This document shows positions 58,823 to 60,392 of a stretch of DNA of 64,000 nt, piece by piece. The notes under the pieces were generated by a model, which saw nothing but the letters and a program-made list of their open reading frames with translations, ran no database searches and was not told the DNA's origin. Every line of letters starts with the position of its first letter. Positions within the stretch are counted from its first letter, which is position 1. The stretch comes from Acidobacteriota bacterium. GTDB lineage: Bacteria; Acidobacteriota; Blastocatellia; Pyrinomonadales; Pyrinomonadaceae. The stretch is taken from positions 124,001 to 188,000 of the forward strand of contig JAHBSL010000001.1 in NCBI GenBank assembly GCA_019639135.1. Direction: 5' to 3'. The position numbers and the translations under genes were made by a program.

Positions 58823-59272
58823 ATGGAACAGCTTCTCGGCATCTTTCCCCATTGGAATTCGTTCCTTAACGCGACCTCGGCGGTTTTCCTGGTCATCGGT
58901 TTCTATTTCATAAGGCAAAAGGCGATCCCGAAGCATAAAGCGTGTATGCTGACGGCGTTTACGGTATCGACCATATTTTTGGCGAGTTATCTGACCCACC
59001 ATACCCTGCGAAGCTACTATTTCGGTATCGGGCCGACACGATTTACCGGCGAGGGTCTCGCGAGGCCGATCTATTTCACCATCTTGACCTCGCACACGAT
59101 CCTCGCGGCGATCGGGGCTCCGTTCATCATCGCGGCCCTTTATCTGGCTCTGAAAGGCCGATTCGATAAGCATAAAAAGCTCGCGAGATTCGTTTTTCCG
59201 GTATGGCTTTACGTGTCGGTAACGGGCGTTATCGTCTATATAATGCTCTATCACCTCTATCCGGCACGCTGA
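58823..59272 (+). CDS. DUF420 family membrane protein
   Basis: A 149-residue protein with four helices. The family pattern is clear: PHWNSFLNATSAVFLVIGFYFIRQKAIPKHKACMLTAFTVSTIFLASYLTHHTLRS, then SHTILAAIGAPFIIAALYLALKGRFDKHKKLARFVFPVWLYVSVTGVIVYIMLY. These proteins occur next to cytochrome oxidase genes and are thought to help in oxidase assembly, possibly copper delivery; conserved histidines in helices 2 and 3 fit metal or heme binding. It ends the ctaB-coxIII row. Confidence 0.9.
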   Translation: MEQLLGIFPHWNSFLNATSAVFLVIGFYFIRQKAIPKHKACMLTAFTVSTIFLASYLTHHTLRSYYFGIGPTRFTGEGLARPIYFTILTSHTILAAIGAPFIIAALYLALKGRFDKHKKLARFVFPVWLYVSVTGVIVYIMLYHLYPAR

Positions 59273-59337
59273 GATCGGAAAAAATGTCGGGTTTCTCCGC
59301 AGTTTTCTTGCTCTTAGCCGAAACAAAGTGCTAATAT

Positions 59338-59492
59338 CTACACGTTGAAAAGTTGATCACCGAGGTCGGGATGACCCGACGCGGGGGAACCACCGAGAAA
59401 GGACGTGTCCGATCTCAGGGGCGAAGCAGGTCTTTAGAGGCTTGCGGGGATAACTTTCGTTCCTAGCCCGTCAGCTAACCTCGTAGGTGTGG
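59338..59492 (+). ncRNA. c-di-AMP riboswitch (ydaO/yuaA type) with no recognisable gene behind it
   Basis: The plus strand has the conserved elements of the ydaO/yuaA class in order: GACGCGGGGGAACCACCGAG (59377-59396), AGGGGCGAAGCAGG (59417-59430), GGGGATAAC, and the highly conserved tail GCCCGTCAGCTAACCTCGTA (59466-59485) before GGTGT. The outer stem is ACAC (59340-59343) with GTGT (59487-59490). These RNAs sense cyclic di-AMP and usually control cell-wall hydrolase or potassium/osmolyte transport genes. Here the next plus-strand gene with a good start is ETF-QO, a kilobase away, beyond an antisense lipoprotein gene. Confidence 0.92.
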
Positions 59493-59596
59493 CAAAGAAG
59501 TTACTGCAGAAGAAAAGACTTAAGGTCGCGAATTTTGTGTGTGCTTCGCGCTCTGCTTTCTCAACGAAACAAGCAGAAATCCGGTCTTCTCAAGGA

Positions 59597-59630
59597 CGTA
59601 ATACCCGCGGAGCGATTCGCGGGTATTACG
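59597..59630. repeat. 13-bp perfect inverted repeat after the riboswitch
   Basis: CGTAATACCCGCG, loop GAGCGATT, CGCGGGTATTACG. A very stable hairpin on both strands, one base before the stop codon of the convergent lipoprotein gene. There is no direct T-run, so it is not a classical terminator; it may be a 3'-end barrier or a fragment of the riboswitch's expression platform. Confidence 0.75.
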
Positions 59631-60392
59631 TTAGGGGTAGTAACGCTTTTTCAGATAGCCCGCATTCCACGGATCATCGCTAAAATAAAATACCCGACGG
59701 CCCGGTTTGAGACCGGCAAGCGGAGCTTCATCCACCGATAACCCGTAACTCGCACGGCAAAGCGGCTCCGTCCAGTCGTTCCCGGCGCGAAGGAAGGCGC
59801 GGATGGGTTCGGCATCGGCACCCATCACGAATGCCATCGGAACTGCCTCATCAACATCCAAATCCTGCAGCCAGCGGTCGCCGACACACCACGACGCAAG
59901 CGCCGTGATCGTCAGCGGCGTCCCGTCGGGAAGTCCGGAACGAAGTGCAGAGACAAGTTTTCGATAAAAGGGCCGTTCGGAGAGCGTCGCGTCAAAATCG
60001 ATCTGGATCCCGCGGGCGTTCGGCCGCTCAAGGGCGGACTGTGCGAGTTCGACGATCTCGGCGATCTGGCCGTCGCTCAAGTTAGGCCGCCGTTCGGTCT
60101 CCTTGACGGTCTCGATGCGGATCACTGCCGTGAGATAGGTGCCATCGGGAACAGCCAGCGGCTGGCGGCGCGGTTCGCGGCGGATCGAATCACGCTCAAG
60201 CGTCAGCGTCATCGCGAGGAATGCGACGCCGGTCGTTCCGGGGTCGATGAAACGCAGGTCTTCATTTCGTTCCCATGCCCAGAGCACGGTCGCCGGTGCC
60301 TCCGAAGTACGCGGAAGCCGCACGGCCCGATCGGTACTGCAGGCGGCGACGAGCGAAACTAAAGCAAAGAGGATGAACGAGCGGGACTGCAC
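59631..60392 (-). CDS. DUF3142-like lipoprotein
   Basis: A 253-residue lipoprotein (signal ILFALVSLVAAC with cysteine +1). The body fits the DUF3142 family: ATVLWAWERNEDLRFIDP, VAFLAMTLTL near the start; then GIQIDFDATLSERPFYRKLVSALRSGLPDGTPLTITALASWCVGDRW, the core pattern, which resembles a TIM-barrel glycoside-hydrolase-like fold; and SVDEAPLAGLKPGRRVFYFSDDPW at the end. Activity is unknown. It lies antisense to the region where a target of the c-di-AMP riboswitch would be expected. Confidence 0.85.
   Translation of the reverse strand: MQSRSFILFALVSLVAACSTDRAVRLPRTSEAPATVLWAWERNEDLRFIDPGTTGVAFLAMTLTLERDSIRREPRRQPLAVPDGTYLTAVIRIETVKETERRPNLSDGQIAEIVELAQSALERPNARGIQIDFDATLSERPFYRKLVSALRSGLPDGTPLTITALASWCVGDRWLQDLDVDEAVPMAFVMGADAEPIRAFLRAGNDWTEPLCRASYGLSVDEAPLAGLKPGRRVFYFSDDPWNAGYLKKRYYP

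Follow-up and report, generated by a model that had tools for sequence, protein, structure and literature searches.

Riboswitches are generally taken to be cis-regulators, and the few exceptions known to us that feed non-coding RNAs, such as Rli55, SreA and AspocR, sense B12 or SAM. In EutX of Enterococcus, an aptamer occupies the 5' end of a non-coding RNA that acts elsewhere. Listeria holds several riboswitches that feed or become regulatory RNAs (PMC8079631): Rli55 joins a B12 riboswitch to a non-coding RNA, the terminated product of the SAM riboswitch SreA pairs with prfA mRNA, and AspocR is an antisense RNA to pocR that carries a B12 riboswitch. The c-di-AMP riboswitches, by comparison, are described as 5'-leader cis-regulators of adjacent genes for K+ transport, amino-acid transport and the cell wall (PMC7266159). 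No c-di-AMP riboswitch of the stand-alone non-coding RNA kind came to light in the open-access literature that we searched, which is a part of the whole literature.

Here we describe a locus in the window, the 64,000-nucleotide stretch of an Acidobacteriota contig that was analysed as a whole, at which a c-di-AMP aptamer forms the 5' half of what is probably a stand-alone non-coding RNA gene of ~290 nt. As judged from sequence comparison, this RNA would be c-di-AMP-responsive and probably trans-acting. It shares with Rli55 and EutX a 5' aptamer on a non-coding RNA that would act elsewhere, and in many species a candidate internal terminator (T1) lies inside its tail. It differs from both in its ligand and in its much shorter tail; no ANTAR-type protein-binding element was identified in the RNA, and T1 is weak and not universal. 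Like SreA, it could be a terminated riboswitch RNA that regulates by base pairing, but SreA also controls a cis gene, whereas the present RNA has no such gene, and searches for a pairing target found none. Like AspocR, it faces a convergent gene; in contrast to AspocR, the convergent gene is not the same one in all species, and the RNA stops at it or short of it. If this reading is true, a large group of environmental bacteria would possess a dedicated RNA gene through which c-di-AMP can act in trans, and gene-less riboswitches would not always be relics.

Aptamer and promoter

Analysis of the window with cmscan identified a full-length match to the ydaO/yuaA family RF00379 (model positions 1-134) at 59348-59504 on the plus strand, with an E-value of 2.7e-15 and a score of 73.9 bits, well above the gathering score of 38. 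The element is thus a member of this family, and the ydaO/yuaA blocks and invariant tail that a first-pass annotation had read from the letters alone are confirmed by the Rfam search it had called for. No Rfam family besides RF00379 matches the RNA significantly. The features of the locus are as follows.

59308-59337, plus strand: promoter, with a -35 box TTGCTC at 59308-59313, an 18-nt spacer and an extended -10 box TGC-TAATAT at 59332-59337 (comparative alignment)
59344-59351, plus strand: predicted 5' end of the RNA, GUUGAAAA, near-invariant in the alignment and ~7 nt 3' of the -10 box
59348-59504, plus strand: c-di-AMP (ydaO/yuaA) riboswitch aptamer, RF00379 (cmscan, 73.9 bits, full length)
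59472-59489, plus strand: invariant aptamer tail, CAGCTAACCTCGTAGGTG
59492-59595, plus strand: conserved non-coding tail, model R1 (own match E 2.9e-19)
59497-59547, plus strand: tail hairpin P8, closed by GAAG (59497-59500) and CUUC (59544-59547), part of the predicted fold of most relatives once the aptamer is formed
59527-59562, plus strand: candidate internal terminator-like hairpin T1, CGCGAA (59527-59532) and UUCGCG (59545-59550), then CUCUGCUUUCUC
59552-59577, plus strand: hairpin P10, UCUGCUU/AAGCAGA, with loop ...UCAAC... (comparative pairing)
59584-59595, plus strand: 3' motif GUCUUCUCAAGG, consensus GUCUUCUCAAAG (conservation)
59595-59632, plus strand: 3' hairpin in terminator position, GACGTAATACCCGCGGA-GCGA-TTCGCGGGTATTACGTT, 17 pairs, overlapping the stop codon of the convergent gene

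The element is the sole RF00379 match in the 4.09-Mb assembly and the only c-di-AMP riboswitch detected in the window's species, as is also the case in 18 other genomes of the genus, several of them incomplete. It has the aptamer sequence and structure of known ydaO/yuaA members, including the pairing of the P7 loop with sequence 3' of P1; this pairing shows covariation between genera. Known members stand before an adjacent gene (PMC7266159), whereas here no gene is conserved and a tail of ~85 nt precedes the terminator. The complete 291-nt RNA folds more stably than its shuffles (z -3.64). Genes for a diadenylate cyclase (DAC; E 9.3e-42) and for Hfq (E 9.7e-22) are present in the genome, and the element would be expected from its aptamer to bind c-di-AMP.

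When the genus loci were aligned on GTTGAAAA, a promoter-like site was found at about the same distance in 36/36 of them. Its mean score was 9.36, compared with 7.08 (s.d. 0.95) for shuffled upstream sequence, and the conserved columns are -14 (G), -12 (T), -11 (A) and -7 (T). A fixed-consensus promoter scan of the window sequence alone returned no site because the -35 box is weak. The predicted RNA start GUUGAAAA is present in all 61 analysed sequences.

A structured tail and a 3' terminator

In the genus alignment, the ~85 nt between aptamer and terminator contain invariant pieces. Mean pairing predicted from the alignment with the aptamer formed comprises a contact between the 5' end and UUCAAC (P0), P8, and a small hairpin before the 3' motif; the P10 loop ...UCAAC... 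is complementary to the 5' GUUGA of the RNA. P10 has at least four enclosing pairs in 49 of 60 sequences, and its stems differ (CUGCUU/AAGCAG and UUUGAUUU/AAAUCAAA). In an arm-swap test on 60 sequences, the values of which are inflated by relatedness, own arms outperformed swapped arms for the aptamer pseudoknot (z -6.0), the P8 region (z -4.2) and P10 (z -5.4), each with 0/2000 permutations, and the terminator arms covaried strongly (z -20.4). The same test gave no covariation signal for P0 or for the anti-P1 hairpin, and the P9 arm proved almost invariant. The closing helix of P8 is paired in 100% of cells, yet is nearly invariant. Within A3, an alignment limited to the genus, P10 and the closing pairs of P8 are paired in 89.1% of cells, as against 32-49% when slid by 1-3 columns. 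Covariation of P8 and P10 was not significant in A3, where 64/500 shuffles reached the score; much of the support for these two hairpins therefore stems from differences between genera.

T1 is mutually exclusive with the outer pairs of P8. T1-like hairpins with changed pairs occur in many, not all, relatives (CGCGA/UCGCG, GGUGCGA/UCGUGCC and GCACAA/UUGUGC). The arm-swap test was unsupportive (z +1.0), and a terminator scan gave a weak match, with 1 found and 0.5 expected. A T1 hairpin followed by a U-rich run in many, though not all, species is suggestive of an internal terminator.

Toward the 3' end, GUCUUCUCAA is identical in 36/36 genus loci, and the 3' motif has few variants among the 61 sequences. 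Its predicted accessibility in ensembles from constrained folding is about unchanged between the aptamer-formed (0.40) and free (0.39) states.

Most relatives carry a U-tract intrinsic terminator at the equivalent place, 86-121 nt past the aptamer core. In clear ordinary members of the genus and class, the terminator usually lies 27-48 nt past the core and a gene follows; an expression-platform terminator near the aptamer is therefore lacking here. The hairpin that the first-pass annotation had placed at 59597-59630 is real, spanning 59595-59632, but it has no U-tract in the window's species, whereas it is canonical in most relatives. Along with G019 and G031, two near relatives, this species has kept the hairpin and lost the U-tract. 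Having lost the U-tract and overlapping the convergent stop codon, the hairpin at 59595-59632 may now serve both strands. With its own promoter in 36/36 loci and, in relatives, an intrinsic terminator whose U-tract is missing from these three, the unit has the makeup of a small-RNA gene. The earlier proposal of a regulatory transcript that ends at the hairpin is supported, and extended, by this comparative evidence.

Distribution in the family

RF00379 was searched in a sample of 60 relatives. The window-type copy, which carries CAGCTAACCTCGTAGGTGTNGCAAAGAAG, occurs in 36 of the 37 genus genomes first examined, all but G005, once in each and always directly after DUF420. In these genomes it forms a conserved unit that comprises an extended -10 promoter at fixed spacing, the GUUGAAAA start, the aptamer, a tail ending in GUCUUCUCAAAG, and the terminator. 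R1, a covariance model built from just the tail and, with its 5 pairs, nearly a sequence profile, matched 63 of 162 class genomes, one match each and all within one family. The match in G060 (E 0.003) is false, there being no aptamer. The tail is thus genuine in 62 genomes from 8 genera, all of a single family that the record names give as Pyrinomonadaceae, with one copy each, and Acidobacteria bacterium OLB17 and several records named Pyrinomonadaceae bacterium carry the unit. Among 396 genomes of the phylum, R1 under strict filters found none outside the family. Rfam confirmed the aptamer in 19/20 of the tail-matched loci scanned, G060 being the exception.

For the genus in total, 38/41 genomes match the tail model. 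In G062, the locus runs off the contig inside the tail, and in G005 and G060, which are without the unit, the DUF420 locus is also missing from the assemblies. G109 has a diverged copy after DUF420. No plasmid copies of the RNA were found. In another genus of the family, G094 and G095 (L311 and L314) hold a c-di-AMP riboswitch that has no gene behind it and whose tail and terminator resemble those of the unit, on a contig other than that of DUF420; the unit may therefore move independently of the cox cluster.

Genomic context and alternative explanations

Upstream of the element in the window lies DUF420 (58823-59272), preceded by COX3 and a UbiA-type protein (ctaB-like). Downstream is a convergent gene on the opposite strand (59631-60392), which matches DUF3142 weakly (26.8 bits, below the curated cut-off of 30), and then ETF-QO on the plus strand. 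Given the RF00379 match and this convergent neighbour, the first-pass observation of an orphan riboswitch stands. A conserved controlled gene, as expected directly downstream of a cis-riboswitch, was not found. Among the 35 loci with enough sequence, the next gene is convergent in 25 and in sense orientation in 10, and the sense genes belong to 7 families, none of them present in more than three genomes.

The tail likewise holds no credible gene on the plus strand, as had been noted from the window alone. The frames that begin at the GTG codons at 59487 and 59489 run for 84 and 64 codons in the window's genome; over 61 sequences, their median stops come after 30 and 24 codons, with minima of 2 and 1, and the start codon at 59489 is lost in 22/61. 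In none of these sequences does the tail hold the start of an ORF that has at least 20 codons and is led by a Shine-Dalgarno-like sequence. A small protein in the GTG frames was rejected on these three grounds, and an intact conserved small gene at 59487 or 59489 was not seen in the relatives. What remains, an ORF-less succession of aptamer, conserved non-coding domain and terminator, is an arrangement like that of Rli55 and EutX.

Deletion of the target gene, one of the explanations first offered, is rejected by conserved gene-less synteny: the arrangement recurs in 36/36 genus loci and across 8 genera, its promoter, tail and terminator being kept, and the 7 families of downstream sense genes are unrelated. 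A conserved stand-alone unit, without a conserved downstream gene or ORF and with part of the tail structure, is well supported by these comparisons. As no consistent gene lies downstream despite this conservation, the RNA probably acts elsewhere in the cell.

We considered whether the cytochrome oxidase cluster could instead have the element as its regulated 3' UTR: cox mRNA would run on into it, and c-di-AMP would control how stable that mRNA is or where it ends, or else an RNA derived from the 3' UTR would be set free. The RNA lies directly 3' of ctaB-COX3-DUF420 in 60/60 loci with enough upstream DNA (36 from the genus and 24 further), and a terminator-like hairpin separates DUF420 from the RNA in only 3/36 loci, so the RNA's terminator may also end the cox mRNA. 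However, a pure 3'-UTR element would need neither an own conserved promoter nor a fixed 5' end, a similar RNA lies away from DUF420 in G094 and G095, and the shared position may be plain inheritance. This explanation appears unlikely.

An ordinary cis-acting transcriptional riboswitch that reaches a distant target by read-through, here ETF-QO ~900 nt away and past the convergent gene, is improbable. RF00379 members are normally cis-regulators (PMC7266159), the terminator of the window's species has no U-tract, and a sense gene does come next in 10/35 loci, for example a D-Ala-D-Ala-ligase-like gene in three. Against these points, the next gene is convergent in the other 25 and the sense genes are unrelated, while ETF-QO is present at this place solely in the window's species and its two near relatives. 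Swapping of terminator and antiterminator arms with upstream sequence gave no own-partner advantage (17.1 versus 16.8 for swapped arms), a weak argument because ordinary riboswitches also lack the signal, which makes this comparison uninformative.

The RNA might also act as a sink, its aptamer on a terminated transcript buffering free c-di-AMP. Its complete aptamer, own promoter and terminator, together with the picomolar affinity reported for c-di-AMP riboswitches (PMC7266159), would suit such a role, but the near-invariant tail motif and the tail structure would be left unexplained, and we consider it very improbable.

It is hardly credible that the element is the relic of a decayed riboswitch, or that it makes an antisense RNA dedicated to the DUF3142 gene: both readings would fit the missing downstream gene and the convergent neighbour in the window's genome, but the whole unit is conserved in 8 genera with different neighbours, the DUF3142 gene follows in only 3/35 loci, and the terminator comes before or at the convergent gene's end, leaving the antisense role proposed earlier unsupported as a conserved one. 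Judged by this conservation, the element is not a decayed relic.

Proposed mechanism and candidate targets

Returning to the stand-alone non-coding RNA, we infer that it is transcribed, binds c-di-AMP, has its tail switched by binding and acts in trans. Promoter, aptamer, structured tail and 3' terminator are inherited together, with no cis gene of their own to control. In the proposed mechanism, binding of c-di-AMP would most probably alter the folding or length of the tail, via P8 and P10 and the UUCAAC loop contacting the 5' GUUGAAAA, or via the weak internal terminator T1. The tail, ending in GUCUUCUCAAAG, may subsequently act in trans on an mRNA or a protein. We see about an even chance that the RNA is a c-di-AMP-sensing, trans-acting sRNA that captured the aptamer as its sensor domain and provides the main or only riboswitch output of c-di-AMP in these bacteria, possibly linking the signal to respiration.

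Searches for base-pairing partners covered several patterns. With the antisense seed TTTGAGAAGAC in 41 genus genomes, the 80 sites read showed recurring matches within the coding sequence of conserved proteins rather than at start sites. TTGAGAAGA near ATG gave no recurring start-site target in 8 genomes, and no recurrent target was found within 7 kb of the RNA. Exact complements of the 3' motif fell in coding sequence or at unrelated genes, with no conserved site for the patterns tried. In the window's genome, a histone-H1-like, Lys/Ala-rich gene (L361; G000 C5:108273-108288) carries TTGAGAAGAAACTATG at its start, a 9-nt complement of the tail motif. The identical string recurs in one near relative only (G019, C29), and the gene is a plausible candidate target on the basis of this complementarity.

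Ordinary c-di-AMP riboswitches in the same genus and class

The genes behind ordinary copies encode an NAD_binding_9-type FAD protein, KUP- and APC-like transporters (names read from sequence, not from profiles) and solute-binding-like lipoproteins. The FAD protein (MKRITIIGGGASGTLL...) follows ordinary copies of the genus at L034, L035, L037, L039, L040, L052, L074, L075 and L013; to our knowledge, it is not a known c-di-AMP target. In the class, c-di-AMP riboswitches at L044, L045, L053 and L033 precede sulfate- or phosphate-binding-like lipoproteins, named from sequence only. Before the NAD_binding_9-type gene, the 5' arm of the terminator, often GAGGUU, could pair with AACCUC of the aptamer.
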